Assembly: GCF_026283925.1 (NCBI RefSeq)
Contig: NZ_JAPDPF010000001.1
Span: 62,001-126,000 of the forward strand
Origin: Dyella halodurans
GTDB lineage: Bacteria; Pseudomonadota; Gammaproteobacteria; Xanthomonadales; Rhodanobacteraceae
Direction of reading: 5' to 3'
DNA length: 64,000 nucleotides
Every line of letters starts with the position of its first letter. The first letter of the stretch is position 1. A model generated the notes under the pieces. It was not told the origin of the DNA, made no database searches, and saw only the letters and a program-made list of their open reading frames with translations. Both the position numbers and the translations under genes were made by a program. This document shows positions 7,515-19,170 of this stretch, piece by piece.

Positions 7515-7655
7515 ATGTTGCCTGGCCTGATTACCGCGGCATTGCTGTCGCTGTTCGTGGGGGGCTGCATCTGGCTTTGGCGTCCGGGCCACAAGTCCGT
7601 GCTCGATGCAGCTGCGCAGATGCCTCTGGAAGACGATAAGGAGCAAACAACATGA
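7515..7655 (+). CDS. ccoQ: cbb3-type oxidase subunit CcoQ
   Basis: 46 residues. One membrane helix (LPGLITAALLSLFVGGCIWLW) is followed by a short charged cytoplasmic tail ending DDKEQTT. Size, topology and position between ccoO and ccoP identify CcoQ, a small accessory subunit that stabilises the oxidase. ATG 7515 begins one base after the ccoO stop, and the end overlaps ccoP by four bases (ATGA). Confidence 0.9.
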   Translation: MLPGLITAALLSLFVGGCIWLWRPGHKSVLDAAAQMPLEDDKEQTT

Positions 7656-8584
7656 CGCCCGCCTGGACGTGGTACGTAGTGATCCTGACGGTGTTGAACC
7701 TGGGTGGTTGCGCGTGGCTCCTCATGGGCACGGCCAAGCGTCGATCGAGTGATCCCAAGCCGGACGAAACCGGGCATGTCTGGGATGGCAATCTCACCGA
7801 ATTCAACAAGCCGCTGCCGCGCTGGTGGATCAACCTGTTCATCATCACCATCGTTTTTGCCGTGGCTTATCTGGTCTGGTTCGGCGTGGGCGAGCTGAAA
7901 GGCGTCGGTCACTGGAGTTCCAAGTCCGAATGGGCGCTGGACAACGCCGCCGAGGAGGCCAGGCTGGATGACACGCTCAAGCTCTATGCAGGCAAGCCGA
8001 TCGACGTGCTGGCCCAGGACCCGTCCGCGGTGTCGATTGGTCGCACCATCTTCATCAATCGATGCGCGGCTTGTCATGGCTCGAGCGGGCACGGCGCGGT
8101 TGGATTTCCTGATCTGACCGACGATATCTGGCATTGGGGCGGTACGCCCAATCGCATACTCGATACGATCCAGAACGGGCGCCAGGCGGTCATGCCTGCT
8201 TGGGCCGACACCTTGAAGGCACAGGGCGGCCCCAACGCGGTGGATGACACGATTGCCTACGTGCTGTCGCTGTCCAGGCCCGATCAGCCGAAGGATGCGG
8301 TGGAACGCGGCGAAAAGATGTTCGCCACGATCTGCGTGGCCTGCCATGGCGCGCAAGGCAAGGGCAACCAGGTGGTGGGCGCGCCCGACCTCACCGACAG
8401 CTACTGGCTGTACGGCAGCAGCATGGCGTCGCTGCACAAGACGCTGAGCGAAGGTCGCCAGGGCGCCATGCCTGCATGGAAGCCGGTGCTTGGCGATACC
8501 CGTACGCGCTTGGTCGGCGCCTATGTGTGGACGTTGTCGCCGCACCGGGATCCGCCGCCCACCGGGGCCGTGGTCGCGGAATGA
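7652..8584 (+). CDS. ccoP: cbb3-type oxidase subunit III, dihaem cytochrome c
   Basis: 310 residues. Two N-terminal membrane segments (about 5-25 and 58-80) flank the N-terminal CcoP domain. Two cytochrome c domains follow, with haem sites CAACH and CVACH and candidate Met ligands in QAVMPAWAD and GAMPAWKP. It accepts electrons from soluble cytochromes c and feeds CcoO/CcoN. The start overlaps ccoQ and the stop overlaps the next gene (ATGA), so the operon is translationally coupled. Confidence 0.96.
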   Translation: MTPAWTWYVVILTVLNLGGCAWLLMGTAKRRSSDPKPDETGHVWDGNLTEFNKPLPRWWINLFIITIVFAVAYLVWFGVGELKGVGHWSSKSEWALDNAAEEARLDDTLKLYAGKPIDVLAQDPSAVSIGRTIFINRCAACHGSSGHGAVGFPDLTDDIWHWGGTPNRILDTIQNGRQAVMPAWADTLKAQGGPNAVDDTIAYVLSLSRPDQPKDAVERGEKMFATICVACHGAQGKGNQVVGAPDLTDSYWLYGSSMASLHKTLSEGRQGAMPAWKPVLGDTRTRLVGAYVWTLSPHRDPPPTGAVVAE

Positions 8585-8895
8585 TGATGAAGCGGCGATC
8601 GCTCAAACCGCCAGACCAGGCGTCGGTACGTGCTTCGGTGCGGCGTGTCGGCGCCATCCTGTGGCCAAGCTTCTTCGTGGCCGGCGTGGTGACCATGGTG
8701 TTCTTTGCCTACGTCGACCCCGAAGCGCTACAGGACATGACTTTTCCGTCGTTGAAGCTCAGCCGCGAACTTGGCTATACGCTGGGCTTCTTCCTGATCT
8801 GGCTGGCGACCGCATCGTCCAGCCTGTTTACCTGGATCCTGTTGCGTCCGGCACGGCTGGTCCGGGGCGGTTTACGTTCGGGCAGGGCATCATGA
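8581..8895 (+). CDS. Small two-helix membrane protein between ccoP and ccoG
   Basis: 104 residues. A basic N-terminus (MMMKRRSLKPPDQASVR) is followed by two hydrophobic segments (about 22-40 and 62-82) joined by a short acidic loop. The start overlaps the ccoP stop and its own stop overlaps the ccoG start (both ATGA), so it is an integral member of the operon. I know no named Cco protein of this kind. It is not CcoQ, CcoH or CcoS, which are all present elsewhere in the operon. An assembly or stability role is inferred from context only. Confidence 0.8.
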   Translation: MMMKRRSLKPPDQASVRASVRRVGAILWPSFFVAGVVTMVFFAYVDPEALQDMTFPSLKLSRELGYTLGFFLIWLATASSSLFTWILLRPARLVRGGLRSGRAS

Positions 8896-10445
8896 GTGGT
8901 CGCATTCCGCTGCGCGTCATCGACGACAGCGATTCGTATTACGTCAGCGAACGCAAGGTCTACTCGCGCGAGGTATCGGGGCGATTCAATCGCCTGCGCG
9001 TGGCGGCCGTGCTGTGGCTGCTCGGCATGTTCTATCTGTTTCCATGGCTGCGCTGGAACGGGCAGCAGGCAGTCCTGCTCGATCTCCCGGCGCGCAAGTT
9101 TCATATCTTCGGCCTGATGTTCCTGCCGCAGGACTTTCTGTTCCTGTCGATGCTGCTGATCATTGCGGCGCTTGCGCTGTTCTTCTTCACCGCCCTGGCC
9201 GGTCGACTGTTCTGCGGCTATGCCTGTCCGCAAACCGTCTGGACCGAAGTCTCGATCTGGATCGAGCGTTGGTGCGAAGGCGACCGTAACAAGCAAATGA
9301 AGCTGGATGCGGGGCCGTGGAATCGCGAAAAGATCCTGCGCAAGGGCGCTCGGCACGGGCTGTGGGCGCTGTTCTCGCTGTGGACCGGCTTTACCTTCGT
9401 CGGATTCTTCAGCCCGATCGTCGGCCTGGCGCAGCGCACCCCGTGGGCCTGGGGCGGCTGGGAAACATTCTGGATTCTGTTCTACGGCTTCGCCACCTGG
9501 GGCAACGCCGGCTTTCTGCGTCAGCAGGTATGCAAGTACATGTGCCCCTACGCGCGCTTCCAGAGCGCGATGTTCGATCGAAACACCTTGATCATCGCCT
9601 ACGATCCCATGCGTGGCGAACCACGCGGTTCGCGCAAGCGTGGCTTGCAGAGCGTGCTGGCGCGTGCCCGCGGTCTGCTCGACAAGGCCACGGCCTACGA
9701 CTATGTGTTTCGCGCCAGCCGGCATCCCTCGGCGGCGGACAACCGTGCACAGGCCGGCGGCACCATCGCTCTGGCGGGGGCCGCCGGTGCCACGGCCGAA
9801 CCGCTGCCGAAATTTACCGCCGAGCTGCTTGGCGACTGCATCGACTGCACGATCTGTGTGCAGGTGTGCCCCACCGGCATCGATATCCGCAATGGCCTGC
9901 AGTACGAGTGCATTGCCTGCGGTGCCTGTATCGATGCCTGCGACGATGTGATGAAAAAGGTCGGCTACCCGACCGGGCTGATTCGCTACACCACGCAGAA
10001 TCACATCGACAGCAAGCCGGCGCGGGTGCTGCGGCCGCGCATCGTGGTCTATGGCTGTCTGTTGCTGGCCCTGGCCGGTGGCTGGATGTACGGCGTGACC
10101 CATCGCAGTGTGCTGATTGCCGAGGTGCTGCGTGATCGCAATGCCATGTACAGCCAAGGCAGCGGTGGCAGCATCGAGAACAGCTACACGCTCAAGCTGG
10201 TCAACAAGGATCAGCAGGCGCACCGCTTCATGATCGATGTGAGTGCCGCCGACATGCCTGGCGTCAGCCTGCGCGGCGGCCCGAAGACGGTGCTGGCGCA
10301 AAGCGGCGAAGTGGTTTCGGTGCCCGTTACGGTCAGCGCCTCGGCCGAGGTATCCGGTCGCCACGCCATGCAATTCCAGGTCCGCGGCGTCGATGTGGAT
10401 GCCACCACGACCGTCAACAGCAGCTTCTTTGGGCCACTGCCATGA
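8892..10445 (+). CDS. ccoG: cbb3 oxidase accessory iron-sulfur protein CcoG/RdxA/FixG
   Basis: 517 residues. It has several membrane helices with cysteine motifs at helix ends (FCGYACPQTVWTE, CKYMCPYARFQS). A dicluster ferredoxin domain carries CIDCTICVQVCP and CIACGACIDACD for two [4Fe-4S] clusters, and the C-terminal domain is an Ig-like FixG_C fold. CcoG proteins are implicated in cupric reductase activity during cbb3 assembly. The ATG at 8892 overlaps the preceding stop, and the end overlaps ccoH. Confidence 0.94.
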   Translation: MSGRIPLRVIDDSDSYYVSERKVYSREVSGRFNRLRVAAVLWLLGMFYLFPWLRWNGQQAVLLDLPARKFHIFGLMFLPQDFLFLSMLLIIAALALFFFTALAGRLFCGYACPQTVWTEVSIWIERWCEGDRNKQMKLDAGPWNREKILRKGARHGLWALFSLWTGFTFVGFFSPIVGLAQRTPWAWGGWETFWILFYGFATWGNAGFLRQQVCKYMCPYARFQSAMFDRNTLIIAYDPMRGEPRGSRKRGLQSVLARARGLLDKATAYDYVFRASRHPSAADNRAQAGGTIALAGAAGATAEPLPKFTAELLGDCIDCTICVQVCPTGIDIRNGLQYECIACGACIDACDDVMKKVGYPTGLIRYTTQNHIDSKPARVLRPRIVVYGCLLLALAGGWMYGVTHRSVLIAEVLRDRNAMYSQGSGGSIENSYTLKLVNKDQQAHRFMIDVSAADMPGVSLRGGPKTVLAQSGEVVSVPVTVSASAEVSGRHAMQFQVRGVDVDATTTVNSSFFGPLP

Positions 10446-14247: not shown

Positions 14248-14954
14248 GTCGGCTCCATGGGCCATGGATGCATGGATCTCCATGGCGGTCATCTCATGGT
14301 GATCACCGATCGCTTTTCGGTAGACCGGCATGGCATGCCGGTCCCGCGCCGTTACTGAAGCGACGACCTCGCGTGTTGCCGCTCGCTACCCGTCGTCCTG
14401 TTTAGGGTGCGTTAGCGTCTTGGTTGCCGCTGATAAAGAGCTGGCAGGCTCGCTCCGACGGTTTGCCATCGACGAAATGATTGAGACTTTTCTGATACCC
14501 ACGCCCCCTTGCTGCGCATAGGATTCCGCGGCTGCTTAAACGTTCGAACTGCGTGGCGAATTCGTGTGGCCAATGTGTAGCGATCACTCGATCACTACGG
14601 AGTACGGGCACCAGCAAGAGTCGAATGCTGAAGCGGTCACGCCTGGGTCAATGGCCGGCGTGACTACTTCATGCGATGTCCTGGCTATCAGGCATCGGCA
14701 AGAATCCGAGTTTTTGGGCGAGCGTGGCCATCGTCGCGACGACGGAAGGGTGCACCCTAAGCACCGAGCCGGAAGCGGATTGACGGCGCGCGTGATGATG
14801 GCGAGCGTGAGCTCGCCCGAGACGAGGATGAAACGGACGGGCATTGGCACGTCATGGAATGACGGCGTGGACGACCAGCGGAACGGTCGGATCGCTACCT
14901 GTTCGATATCGAAGTTGTACTTGAGTATCTCCCACCCACTGAAGGAATAGTTCC
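14248..14954. other. Intergenic region without a convincing gene
   Basis: 707 bases between the cco operon and the small peptide gene. Short frames occur on both strands, but none has a ribosome site together with a recognisable product. A near-perfect palindrome (GACCGGCATG and CATGCCGGTC with one base between) lies at 14323-14343. No T-rich terminator was found for the cco operon. The promoter of the peptide gene should lie in the last 100 bases, but I see no clear -35/-10 pair. Confidence 0.6.
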
Positions 14955-15050
14955 ATGCAGAAGATCGATCGCGAAGCTCTGAAGAAAGCCGACGTTGCCG
15001 GCGGTTGCGACAAGGTCACCACCAACCCGATCAACCCGGTCTTTCCGTAA
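14955..15050 (+). CDS. Double-glycine leader peptide, putative secreted peptide precursor
   Basis: 31 residues, with AAGGA at 14942-14946, eight bases before ATG 14955. Residues 1-17 are MQKIDREALKKADVAGG: a charged amphipathic leader ending Val-Ala-Gly-Gly, the type of site cut by peptidase C39 transporters. The remaining 14 residues are CDKVTTNPINPVFP: an N-terminal Cys, no other Cys, three Pro and a repeated Asn-Pro. A terminator at 15218-15248 and a C39 transporter gene about 1 kb downstream support a real precursor of a secreted peptide (bacteriocin-like, signal or modified peptide). I recognise no known family. Confidence 0.78.
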   Translation: MQKIDREALKKADVAGGCDKVTTNPINPVFP

Positions 15051-15217
15051 ACGGTAGAGCGGCCACCGACGGCCGGTGCGGAGCCAGGGCGATCGAGCCA
15101 TGGCCCGATGACGGATTGAGGCTGCCGTGAAAGCCGTGCTTGGACGGTGACATCGCGCAGGGATCATTCCCTTTCGAAGGCCGTGCGTCCCGTCGGCTAC
15201 GAGCATGTAGAAGTTGC

Positions 15218-15248
15218 AAACCCCGCGCACTCGGATGCGCGGGGTTTT
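15218..15248 (+). terminator. Rho-independent terminator after the peptide gene
   Basis: Twelve-base inverted repeat (15218-15229 with 15236-15247, AAACCCCGCGCA/TGCGCGGGGTTT) with a six-base loop and a T run. It lies between the small peptide gene and the transport genes. The peptide can therefore be made from a short abundant transcript, with the transporter from readthrough or its own promoter. Confidence 0.85.
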
Positions 15249-15344
15249 CAGTATCAGTAGCGCCGATGGGATCGGGGCGGCGCATGGCGGGCGGCAGCGC
15301 CGACCCAGGCGTGGCCGCCGGCGTTTCGGGCTGGAGTTTTGGAT

Positions 15345-16118
15345 TTGGATATCAGCAGGCTTCCCACCTTTAAGGACGTGTCATGGCGCTGGTTGACCTA
15401 TCTTGGTTCGGCGACCTTGCTTGGCGCCATCGTGTTTGCGTGCGTGCATGAGGTGGAACTAAAACGGGATGCGCCCTGCGAAATCGTCTCGCTTTCCGAG
15501 TTCAAGCTGCGCGGTTATGACGGCCTGGTCGCGGCGGTCTTCGTGCAGCCGGGGGAGCGTGTTGCTTCCGGCATGCCGTTGTTCAATCTTACGTCCGATG
15601 TCATTCCGCCCGACGGTGCGAATGCAGATGGGCGGCCAGACGCCGGCAGGACGATCGTGGCGCCGCGCACCGGTGTGGTGGTCGCGTCGGGTCTGTTGCA
15701 GGGTCGGCGGCTCGATCCCGCCGAGGTCGTCATGGTGATCGATACCGATTCGCAGCGTCACCTGGTGGCGGTGTTGCAGGTACCGTCGCGCCAGCGTGGT
15801 TTTGTGAGTGTGGGGCAGACCGTACGCATCAAGCTTGATGCGATGCCCTACACCCGTTTTGGCACTTACGAGGCGCGCATCGTGTCAGTTTCCGCGACGG
15901 CGCAGCGCGGAAGCGACCCGTCGGGGCGGACCGCCGGCACAACCCATGACGCCGGCGACTACCTGGCTTGGGCGATGCTGCCGGACAAGCGCTTGCCGCA
16001 CGCCGGACCGCCGCCGCAAATCCTTCCCGGCATGCGGGGCCGGGCAAGCATCGTGGTGGAGCGCACGACCATCGCCGGATGGGTGCTGGCACCGCTGTTG
16101 CGCAGGCTCAGGGGTTGA
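15345..16118 (+). CDS. Short HlyD-family membrane fusion protein
   Basis: 257 residues from a TTG start at 15345, eight bases after GGAG; a TTG at 15339 is too close to that site. One membrane helix (about 17-35) precedes two half lipoyl motifs (GYDGLVAAVFVQPGERV and TIVAPRTGVVVASGLLQG) and a C-terminal beta-barrel region. Only about 20 residues separate the two half motifs, so the long coiled-coil hairpin of ordinary type I adaptors is absent. It lies two bases before the C39 ABC transporter and is its likely adaptor. Confidence 0.85.
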   Translation: MDISRLPTFKDVSWRWLTYLGSATLLGAIVFACVHEVELKRDAPCEIVSLSEFKLRGYDGLVAAVFVQPGERVASGMPLFNLTSDVIPPDGANADGRPDAGRTIVAPRTGVVVASGLLQGRRLDPAEVVMVIDTDSQRHLVAVLQVPSRQRGFVSVGQTVRIKLDAMPYTRFGTYEARIVSVSATAQRGSDPSGRTAGTTHDAGDYLAWAMLPDKRLPHAGPPPQILPGMRGRASIVVERTTIAGWVLAPLLRRLRG

Positions 16119-16120
16119 AC

Positions 16121-18247
16121 ATGCGCGTCATCTATCAGAATGAAGTGGCCGAGTGCGGCTATGCCTGCCTGGCCATGGTCTTGACCGAACTGGGGCGCGC
16201 CACCGACGTGCGCGAGATCTCGGCGTTCCGGCCGATTTCCTCGCACGGCCTGTCCATGACGGACCTGTACGACGTGGCCCTGGAGTTCGGCCTTTCCGTG
16301 GAGGCTTACCGGTTCGAGCGCAACGATCTGGCGCAAATCAAGCCCGGTTCGATCCTGCACGTTGGCGGCGCCCATTTCGTCGTGTTCGAGAAACTGGGTC
16401 GGGGCTATGTGCAGGTGATCGATCCGGCCACGGGGCGCCGCCGGGTGGCGCTGGACACCCTGCTCGCCACCATGTCGGGCTACCTTCTCGAATGCGCGCC
16501 GACGCCGCAGCTGCAACGGATTCGCGCCCGCTCGCGGATGCCGGCAGCGCTGGAACGGGTGCGCGCGTGGAATCCACAGTTGCGCAGTTCCATCGCCAAG
16601 GTGATGTTCGTCGCACTGGCGGCACAGTTCGCGATCCTGGCCATGCCTTATCTGGGCTGGCTGATGCTGGATGAGGTGGTCGGCACGGACAACCTCAGCC
16701 TCATCCATACGCTCGTGTGGACATTCGCAGGCATTTTTGCCATCGGCACGTTCGCTCAGTTCGCCCAGGACTATCTGACCGAACTGGCCTGCCAATGGGT
16801 GCGCGTGAATGCGACCGAAGGCTTGTTGAGCCATTTGTTGCGCAATCCGCTGTCCTATTTCGAAAAACGCAACGCGGGCGATCTGTTCGCCAGGATCAAG
16901 GCGCAGGACGACATCAGCGCCCATGCGGTGCGCGTCCGGATCTCGTTGGGGATCGATCTGGCCGTTGGTTTGCTCGCGCTGGCCTTGATGATGATGCAAA
17001 GCCCGCTGCTGGCGACGCTTGCGCTGCTGGGCATTCTCTTGCCAGCGCTGGTTGCGCTGGCCTTGTTCGCTCGCATGCGCGATACCCGCCTGCGGGTCTT
17101 GGAGGAATCTACGCGCTGCGACGAGACCTTGCTCGAAACCATCCGTGCGGCCGCCCTGATCAAGCTGTCATGCGGCGAAACCCGCCGCACGGCGGCCTTC
17201 ATGGGCAAGTTCAAATCCTATGCGGCGGTTGCGCTGCAGGAATCGCGTCTGGTGGCGAAGCGCGACGTTGCGCTGCAGCTGATCAGTTACGGCGAGCTGC
17301 TGGTGATGACCTGGCTTGCCGCGAGCCTGCTGCTTCGCGGCAGCCTCTCGGTCGGCGTGTTCTACGCGTTCATGATCTACCGGTCGCTGGCGTCCGCACG
17401 TCTCGCTCGCTCGGTCAATGCGGGGTTTGCCCACTTGATGCTGGATGCTCCCGCGGCGCGGGTGGACGACATCATGAGCAGCGAGCAAGAGCGCTATACG
17501 CCGATGGCCGACCGACAGAAGGCCGTCGAGGTGGCGTCGTTCGAGTCGATTGCCATGCGCCATGTCTCGTTCCGCTACGGCATATCCGACGGCATGGTGC
17601 TTGCCGACGCGAGCCTGGAGATCCGGCGCGGCGACAAGATCGTGGTGACGGGGCCATCCGGCAGCGGCAAGTCCACCTTGTTCAAGCTGCTGGCGGCGGC
17701 CGAACCGCTGCAGGACGGCGAGCTCCTGCTGAACGGCATCCGCTGGCCGAACCTGACGGTGGACGAGATCCGCCGCCACGTCGTGCATCTGCGCCAGGGC
17801 GACGTCATCTTGCGTGGCTCGATTGCCGACAATGTGTCGCTGTTTACGGCCGATGCGGATGATGAACGCATCCGTCGCGTGCTCGAGCAGGTCGGCCTGT
17901 GGTCTGACGTGATGCGTATGCCGATGCGCACGCGCACGCTGATCAGCGACACCGTGGCCAATATTTCGGCAGGTCAACGGCAGCGCCTGCTGCTGGCGCG
18001 TGCGCTGTACCAGCCGAAGGAAGTGCTGCTGCTGGACGAGCCGACTGCAAACCTGGACGCCGGCTCGGTGTCCGGAGTCGCCGAGTTGCTGCGGCAGCTG
18101 GATCGCACCGTGGTGGTGATCACGCATGACCTCTCGCTGGCCCAGGCGTTCGAACGGCGCTACCGCCTGGTCGATGGCGCGCTGTCGCCTTCGTCGCCGG
18201 TGCATGCCGCCACACCGGAAGTACCGGTTTCAGAGACCGCGGTCTGA
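16121..18247 (+). CDS. Peptidase-C39 ABC transporter (peptide processing and export)
   Basis: 708 residues. The N-terminal C39 domain (1-125) has a complete catalytic set: Gln6, Cys12 in AECGYACLAM, His85 in GGAHFVVF and Asp101 in VIDPATG. It should therefore cut leaders, unlike HlyB-type domains that lack the Cys. The membrane domain spans about 160-440. The ATPase has Walker A GPSGSGKST (511-519), signature ISAGQRQR (near 616), Walker B LLLDEP (Asp639) and H-loop VITHD. The start is ATG 16121 with AGGGG upstream. Its natural substrate is most simply the double-glycine peptide at 14955-15050. Confidence 0.93.
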   Translation: MRVIYQNEVAECGYACLAMVLTELGRATDVREISAFRPISSHGLSMTDLYDVALEFGLSVEAYRFERNDLAQIKPGSILHVGGAHFVVFEKLGRGYVQVIDPATGRRRVALDTLLATMSGYLLECAPTPQLQRIRARSRMPAALERVRAWNPQLRSSIAKVMFVALAAQFAILAMPYLGWLMLDEVVGTDNLSLIHTLVWTFAGIFAIGTFAQFAQDYLTELACQWVRVNATEGLLSHLLRNPLSYFEKRNAGDLFARIKAQDDISAHAVRVRISLGIDLAVGLLALALMMMQSPLLATLALLGILLPALVALALFARMRDTRLRVLEESTRCDETLLETIRAAALIKLSCGETRRTAAFMGKFKSYAAVALQESRLVAKRDVALQLISYGELLVMTWLAASLLLRGSLSVGVFYAFMIYRSLASARLARSVNAGFAHLMLDAPAARVDDIMSSEQERYTPMADRQKAVEVASFESIAMRHVSFRYGISDGMVLADASLEIRRGDKIVVTGPSGSGKSTLFKLLAAAEPLQDGELLLNGIRWPNLTVDEIRRHVVHLRQGDVILRGSIADNVSLFTADADDERIRRVLEQVGLWSDVMRMPMRTRTLISDTVANISAGQRQRLLLARALYQPKEVLLLDEPTANLDAGSVSGVAELLRQLDRTVVVITHDLSLAQAFERRYRLVDGALSPSSPVHAATPEVPVSETAV

Positions 18248-18261
18248 TTGGTGCGTCCCCG

Positions 18262-19170
18262 ATGAAGTGGCTCATGTCCTTGTGGAAAAGCCTGGCCCGG
18301 CTGCGGCAGGCATGGCTGATCAGCCTTTCGGCGCGTTCGATCGAGCGGCTCGCCACGCTCACCTGGTGTGTCAAAAGCCTGTTCAACGCGCGCGAGCGAT
18401 GGAACGGCATCACCCGTTACGAGATGGGGCGTGAGCTGTGGTTGCTCGATGCGGCCGACAAGTGGCGCGCGATGACCGGTAAAACCCTGGAGACCCTGCT
18501 CGACCGGCGATTCCATGACGGCCGGGTAGCGCGCCCCGACGAGGCGTGGCCCGACCTGCGGGAGGTCGCCCGGACGCTGGCGCGCCAGATCGTTGCGCTC
18601 CGGGGCGACGATCCCGCGCGGCCGGTGATTCTTTCGCCGTTCCATTACGTATCGCAATGCGCCTATGTGTATGTACTCGACGAGGTGCGCAAGGCGCTGG
18701 GGCTGGAGACCTTGTCGGCGGTGACCGGCGTGTTTGCCGGCAAGGAGATGGTCATGCCCAGGCTGGAGCCGCTTTATACGCGCGACGATGGCCAGCGCAA
18801 CAATCTCGGCCTGCGCGTGATCCAGGCCTTGCGGCGGGATGGCGTGGTCGTGCTGTTTGCCGATGCGGCCCCCTACACCATGCACCGATTTCCCATGGAG
18901 ACCGTCGACGTCACGGTGCTCGGGCGCCCTGGCCGGATTCATGGCGGCGTGTTCCGCATCGGCGCGCGGATGAATACGGTGCTGTTGCCGTTCTATTTGC
19001 GCTTTACGCACGGCCGCTTCAGCGCGGAGATACTGGAGGCGGTGGAACTGGCTTCGCCTGACGCGCCACAACAGGTGGCGGACAGGATCAGCATCGCCTT
19101 GAAAGGCAATTACGCGCACTGGCTGATGGCGGGGCATCCTTCCATGTACGGGTTTGCATCCGTGAAATAA
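18262..19170 (+). CDS. LpxL/HtrB-like acyltransferase-fold protein
   Basis: 302 residues. The order of segments resembles lipid A late acyltransferases: VILSPFHYVSQCAYVYV, then LGLRVIQALRRDGVVVLFADAAPY, then GGVFRIGARMNTVLLPFYLRF. The family's catalytic motif is HX4(D/E); here it reads His128-YVSQ-Cys133, so the acidic residue is missing. It lies 14 bases after the transporter gene and is probably co-transcribed. It may be a divergent acyltransferase acting on the exported peptide or on lipid, or a non-catalytic homologue. Similarity is judged by eye. Confidence 0.65.
   Translation: MKWLMSLWKSLARLRQAWLISLSARSIERLATLTWCVKSLFNARERWNGITRYEMGRELWLLDAADKWRAMTGKTLETLLDRRFHDGRVARPDEAWPDLREVARTLARQIVALRGDDPARPVILSPFHYVSQCAYVYVLDEVRKALGLETLSAVTGVFAGKEMVMPRLEPLYTRDDGQRNNLGLRVIQALRRDGVVVLFADAAPYTMHRFPMETVDVTVLGRPGRIHGGVFRIGARMNTVLLPFYLRFTHGRFSAEILEAVELASPDAPQQVADRISIALKGNYAHWLMAGHPSMYGFASVK

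Follow-up and report, generated by a model that had tools for sequence, protein, structure and literature searches.

The 64,000-nucleotide stretch of Dyella halodurans DNA analysed here (hereafter the window) carries four adjacent genes that may together mature and export a small peptide. The first is a precursor peptide gene of 31 codons, identified by its translation (14955..15050, ATG at 14955, stop at 15048-15050). A likely ribosome-binding site, AAGGA, can be read in the sequence 8 nt 5' of its ATG (14942..14946, plus strand). The gene is followed by a short HlyD-family periplasmic adaptor (15339..16118, TTG start, 259 codons; Pfam HlyD_3, 9.5e-14), a C39 peptidase-ABC transporter (16121..18247, 708 codons; Pfam C39, 1.5e-22, and ABC_tran, 1.5e-27) and an acyltransferase-like protein with a predicted LPLAT fold (18262..19170, 302 codons). 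The peptide, adaptor, transporter and acyltransferase-like frames lie on one strand (plus) throughout. An initial annotation had described this arrangement, and its small gene with a good ribosome site, its HlyD-like gene and its C39 transporter were all borne out. Between the peptide and transporter genes, folding reveals a strong hairpin with a T-run that could be a terminator or an attenuator (15218..15247, plus strand; a stem of 12 pairs; the folded stretch has -25 kcal/mol and, over 200 shuffles, z -5.5). The initial annotation had called it a terminator; the hairpin itself stands, but it is not listed by a simple consensus terminator scan, which finds terminator-like sites at background level only. 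A consensus promoter scan of the locus found none.

The small gene encodes a 17-residue leader, MQKIDREALKKADVAGG, and a predicted core, CDKVTTNPINPVFP, and its product matches no Pfam or NCBIfam family at E<=1. A first contig scan with the single acyltransferase protein confirmed no relative; an acyltransferase profile then turned up 55 loci from public genomes, most of them in Paraburkholderia and the others in Burkholderia, Caballeronia, Cupriavidus, Herbaspirillum and Rhodanobacter. All 55 also match the adaptor and the transporter (E<=1e-4), and the LPLAT gene stands before the transporter in some loci and after it in others. Small frames of the type MQKIDRNELAKSAVAGGCCK lie directly upstream of this gene set (the cassette), one to four per locus. 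With four same-genus loci and the window added, the collection comprises 60 loci. A strict leader pattern, composed after the first hits had been seen, recovers 70 frames at <=1.2 kb upstream of cassettes in 58 of the 60, and elsewhere in 1.23 Mb a single frame, itself another precursor-like frame from Herbaspirillum. The two loci lacking such frames (L071 and L074, both same-genus) have an LPLAT gene and just a transporter tail, and the adaptor finds no match in them. The joint recurrence of the genes and the alignment of their small peptides, which the initial annotation had left to a search of related genomes, both came out in its favour. A terminator-like hairpin 3' of the last precursor was detected by simple scan in 25 of 58 loci and was absent from the other 33.

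Residue counts refer to the 67 precursors with a 17-residue leader, three of the 70 being left out for their other leader form. All 67 have Leu9, Gly16 and Gly17, the invariance of Gly16-Gly17 arising by selection of the frames, and 65 have Arg6. Conservation extends into the core, where Cys18 is found in 55 and Lys20 in 63. Pooled leaders give proportions of nonsynonymous (pN) and synonymous (pS) differences of 0.24 and 0.65, a crude and saturated estimate. Ser, Thr, Pro, Ala, Cys and Lys abound in the cores, which are 14-48 residues long by the pattern used and diverse (68 different among 70 frames). In five loci (L045, L054, L057, L058 and L059), they are instead Ser/Thr/Asn-rich with short Val/Ile runs, for example ATNTTDLTISITG, and might be prone to aggregation, unlike the Cys/Pro-rich cores elsewhere. 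The A2 precursor profile, which includes the window peptide as one row, gives 1.3e-12 at the locus in the window's own genome and 0.022 at the next place, and in five whole genomes it finds six places at E<=0.001, each inside a cassette locus. When eight relatives' precursors were scanned against NCBIfam, the sole match, for one precursor, was at chance level (E 0.27). These comparisons support the reading of the 31-codon frame as a conserved Gly-Gly precursor gene that belongs with the C39 transporter.

The transporter has the residues expected of a leader peptidase, Q6, C12, H85 and D101, intact as the initial annotation had stated, and a Walker A motif, GPSGSGKS, at residue 511. The four C39 residues are kept in 54 of 55 aligned transporters, the window's included; 5 of the 60 loci were omitted from this alignment as broken, absent or too short, and as read the gene is truncated or broken in Cupriavidus lacunae (L032), L023, L030 and L068. 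Within its own genome, 38 transporter matches were found, of which only the window's own spans the full length, the other 37 reaching at most 38% identity. Having a C39-ABC fusion with all four residues and a conserved Gly-Gly precursor nearby, the locus is a putative C39 export system. It shares a Gly-Gly leader, the C39 Gln, Cys, His and Asp, an ABC core and an HlyD adaptor with the exporters of colicin V/class II microcins and of the NHLP type, and differs from them in having a leader family of its own and an LPLAT partner. NHLP systems have a long nitrile-hydratase-like leader. The window locus falls outside NHLP export (the TIGR03796 equivalog): this is the best NCBIfam match of its transporter, but at 312.9 bits it lies below the cut-off of 853, and the leader has just 17 residues.

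The shape of the adaptor sets the window's group apart. Compared with a 397-residue Paraburkholderia adaptor, the window's adaptor is without about 150 residues between two conserved parts, presumably where such adaptors carry the channel-contacting hairpin. Three other loci (L016, L072 and L073) have adaptors of 258-289 residues, against 259 in the window and a median of 405 (longest start) for the loci measured, a survey that excludes L032 and L061. There are 53 matches to the outer-membrane channel family OEP (PF02321) in the genome and none inside the window, which thus lacks the channel gene of a type I secretion tripartite system; a channel encoded elsewhere in the genome could serve the window's exporter. 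In both Burkholderiales loci checked by Pfam, Paraburkholderia among them, a TolC-like gene follows the transporter, and in others one does so by similarity.

Larger genome surveys show how steadily these genes travel together. In each genome just a few top-ranking first-look candidates were scored (e.g., 9/64, 28/142 and 5/59), which makes the counts incomplete and an absence no proof; the genomes are also related, so that the counts are not independent. In the P. xenovorans family (249 genomes), the transporter matches at E<=1e-100 in 35 genomes, six of them at just 31-32% identity; an orthologue is present in 29, partial or broken in G547, G588 and G609 and in two pieces in G496. A strong LPLAT match occurs in 27 of the 249 (two frames in G609) and a weak one in two more, while the precursor is found in 29, and all 27 strong-LPLAT genomes carry transporter and precursor. 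The exceptions are G547, with a transporter piece and precursors and no LPLAT, G588, with a transporter piece only, and G582, with precursors only. In the window's own family (197 genomes), the transporter (E<=1e-120) is found in three genomes and the precursor profile (E<1e-7) finds the same three, their own precursors being among the rows of the profile; at a loose E<=1, the profile lists 124 genomes, with the next best match at 0.012. The LPLAT match is strong in five of these 197 genomes and weak in two besides, and across 200 genomes of the window's order the LPLAT profile at E<=1e-40 returned the window's own match only. This pattern supports the LPLAT-fold gene as a regular member of the gene set.

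The initial annotation had called this gene LpxL-like. The fold is upheld, as an LPLAT fold is clearly predicted for the window protein, with PatA and LpxM as the closest solved folds. Family membership is not, as no Pfam family matches the protein at E<=1 and it lies outside Lip_A_acyltrans (PF03279); a weak NCBIfam match is to phosphatidylinositol mannoside acyltransferase (5e-4). Profile comparison with relatives' LpxL aligns the C-terminal half only (E 0.001, probability 21%), comparison with the sequences of solved structures gives one meaningless match (E 1.9), and some distant enterobacterial relatives carry PF03279 in precomputed annotation. We take HX4D/E to be the motif of the LPLAT superfamily, with the acid at His+5 expected in the lipid acyltransferases of the fold. 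In the window protein, the His is kept (H128, at the catalytic position) and Cys stands at His+5; across the loci (58 read of 59) this position is Tyr in 55, Phe in two and Cys in one. One residue earlier, at His+4, Gln is found in 26 aligned near-clade LPLATs and Asp in five distant homologues. His128, Ser131, Asp201, Arg225 and His227 are invariant in 12 LPLATs, down to about 20% identity.

The distant relatives provide the strongest hint of what the protein may do. In a search across the phylum, LPLAT matches at E<=1e-7 occur in 6 of 398 genomes: the window's, G930 (taken as G388 of the 249-genome set, the coordinates being identical), G676, G889, G978 and G982. Each of them has a C39-ABC gene as neighbour, together with a Gly-Gly frame, the distant-clade frames having been chosen by hand with no statistic; the G676 precursor begins MKKVDREELTKSELAGGCCK, and the G982 transporter is split into two frames. 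The five distant LPLATs share 18-21% identity with the window's over aligned residues. In the two genomes of the 249-genome set with weak matches (G457 and G499), the LPLAT likewise adjoins a C39-ABC gene (Pfam) and a small Gly-Gly frame, here of another type. G889, G978 and G982 are taken as an enterobacterial family because relatives at the protein and plasmid level come from Rahnella, Serratia, Yersinia, Pantoea, E. coli and others. In these three, HlyD-type, MacB-type and outer-membrane genes follow (Pfam where tested), and then a FabF-type ketosynthase and a FabG-type reductase, each in 3/3. A MaoC-type dehydratase exceeds the Pfam cut-off in two (G889 and G982) and falls below it in G978; an acyl carrier protein is recognised in G982, and an 82-residue frame without a match occupies that place in G889. 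The annotation of a Chimaeribacter plasmid has the whole series, carrier protein included, and that of an E. coli plasmid has the ketosynthase and reductase. Such a chain-building set beside an acyltransferase and a secreted peptide would meet the needs of acylated peptides; a special lipid would need the same.

Clusters of this enterobacterial type (L174/L176, L173/L177, L175/L178, L179 and L180) combine an LPLAT and a C39 exporter with a MacB-type pump and fatty-acid genes; those on chromosomes have a Gly-Gly frame, and on plasmids none, or a very short one, was recognised. The E. coli plasmid-type cluster is found in 9 of 5,426 genomes, always plasmid-borne, and distant blastn against 20,395 E. 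coli records turns up no near relative of the G982 LPLAT gene. G889 and G978 have a DsbA-like gene next to the LPLAT.

We propose, with a probability of about 0.6, that the window holds a maturation and export locus for one peptide, whose core would be acylated by the LPLAT-fold protein, cut from its leader by the C39 domain and exported. Computation establishes the precursor family, the association of the genes, the C39 residues, the LPLAT fold, the conserved His and the conserved core Lys; the chemical steps, including the site and donor of acylation, are what we infer from these. The precursor may be translated in excess over the transporter, with the hairpin lying between their genes. The 31-residue precursor would be recognised through its conserved leader, and its core would be acylated at the cytoplasmic face. 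The acyl group would go to a side chain, because the transporter is where the N-terminus first becomes free. The acceptor in the window's clade would most likely be Lys20, the third core residue, with the neighbouring Cys as the second candidate. The C39 domain would then cut after Gly16-Gly17, and the ABC transporter, assisted by the short adaptor, would export the 14-residue core, to serve perhaps as a secreted amphiphile, an antagonist or a signal. Good indirect support for peptide acylation by the LPLAT comes from the near-invariant core Lys, from the fatty-acid genes of the enterobacterial type and from a split locus, that of G611, where the transporter, adaptor and channel genes lie about 0.7 Mb from the LPLAT gene; three precursors stand beside the LPLAT, and none was seen by the transporter. 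The odds are about even that near and distant clades together form a new class of Gram-negative ribosomal lipopeptides. In such a class, a diverged LPLAT (H-X3-Q in the near clade, H-X3-D in the distant clade) would acylate precursors with short Gly-Gly leaders served by their own C39 exporter, the enterobacterial chain would come from a dedicated mini fatty-acid synthase, and in some genomes one cassette would serve scattered precursors in trans.

Several observations weigh against the proposal that the LPLAT acylates the peptide. No acid stands at His+5, the product is a prediction from the genes, and the substrate could be a lipid instead of a peptide. The distant clades do not share the core Lys. 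Three plasmid clusters have no convincing precursor: none appears in the upstream stretches read for E. coli and Salmonella, and the Chimaeribacter cluster has only a short frame ending in MIKLSAEPPTMMIGGKTKTDFA. Extra precursors lie far from the LPLAT gene in 7 of the 249 genomes of one family, at about 57 kb in three of the seven; one cassette may therefore serve several precursors. These far frames (L148-L155, L157 and L163), of the same leader family, occur singly or in twos and threes, some 57 kb off or on another contig. Lastly, L071 and L074 keep the LPLAT with no working transporter or peptide, both beside a transporter-gene remnant. In L071 (G102), the frame at 8382-9032 starts as cytochrome oxidase subunit I (Pfam) and ends as a C39 transporter tail, and the locus therefore looks like a deletion between an oxidase operon and a cassette locus; its LPLAT carries Leu in place of a Pro that is invariant in the other proteins.

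In the main rival reading, the LPLAT would serve self-protection or the envelope by acylating lipid A or a phospholipid, and the peptide would merely be cut and exported. PatA and LpxM are known to acylate lipids, the two orphan LPLATs persist after peptide loss as an immunity gene might, and the enterobacterial fatty-acid genes would suit a special lipid equally well. We nonetheless consider this explanation unlikely, as it leaves the near-invariant core Lys unexplained and presumes an activity for which the expected acid is missing in the near clade. Moreover, judged by composition, the short cores have no obvious membrane activity without modification, and the orphan of L071, with its altered Pro, sits in what resembles a deletion. 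The missing acid (Asp or Glu in 0/58 loci), together with Gln at His+4 in the near clade, would fit a catalytically dead protein that acts as a chaperone or lipid-binding adaptor, taking the precursor to the membrane transporter. This is more doubtful still, given five residues invariant down to about 20% identity, Asp at His+4 in the five distant LPLATs and fatty-acid genes beside three of these.

A chance frame or an unrelated neighbour was rejected on the evidence of the leader family and the recurring gene association. The strong terminator-like hairpin between the peptide frame and the transporter genes is what could be said for a chance neighbourhood, in which the small frame would be no gene or the LPLAT would serve a different pathway. 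There is very little likelihood of this when the leader family persists through varying gene orders, its pN is well below its (saturated, crude) pS, and the only close LPLAT homologues without a complete C39 neighbour among the loci examined are the two beside transporter remnants.

Several known systems come close to the window locus. AatD is an acyltransferase of the apolipoprotein-N-acyltransferase type, dedicated to a secreted polypeptide, CexE (dispersin), and encoded beside an ABC exporter. The window locus resembles that system in pairing a dedicated acyltransferase with an ABC exporter, and differs in acyltransferase type and in that the substrate of AatD is Sec-exported. PatA and LpxL/LpxM have the same fold as the window LPLAT and a His where the first strand ends, whereas the window type lacks Asp or Glu at His+5, matches no solved structure in sequence and regularly has a peptide exporter as partner. 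Ribosomally synthesised and post-translationally modified peptides (RiPPs) lipidated by GNAT acyltransferases are known, as the initial annotation had stated: PMC13060382 names selidamides, nostolysamides (acylated at Lys1), microvionin and others. A ribosomal precursor and an acyltransferase are common to these and the window locus; those named there have the GNAT fold and lanthionine synthetases, whereas the window locus has the LPLAT fold. No GNAT family is found among the Pfam matches of the four window frames, and the frames examined with Pfam include no lanthionine synthetase.

No description of a C39 exporter paired with an LPLAT was found in the open-licence literature, which does not cover most subscription journals, and to that extent the novelty claimed by the initial annotation holds. 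C39 export of Gly-Gly peptides and GNAT-acylated ribosomal peptides are already known; the locus would possibly represent a new class if acylation were shown. The recurring trio of peptide, exporter and acyltransferase-like protein in related bacteria suggests that small, possibly lipid-tagged peptides form a family not yet described. If the LPLAT does acylate the peptide, a fold known for lipid substrates would make lipopeptides for secretion, and the 68 different cores of the precursor family would open to discovery. An unnamed gene set of Paraburkholderia, Caballeronia, Rhodanobacter, Cupriavidus and enterobacteria would become a testable pathway with a predictable product.

Upstream of the locus, the window carries a cbb3 oxidase subunit (7652-8584) and a cation-transport ATPase, and downstream, on the opposite strand, an S-adenosylhomocysteine hydrolase. 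In other loci, a fimbrial-subunit-like gene lies near the cassette, recognised by Pfam in L016 and by similarity in L017, L039, L069, L072, L073 and L074 (14 of 60 loci by similarity overall). Usher and chaperone genes are also found near the cassette in L016 and, by similarity, in L017.

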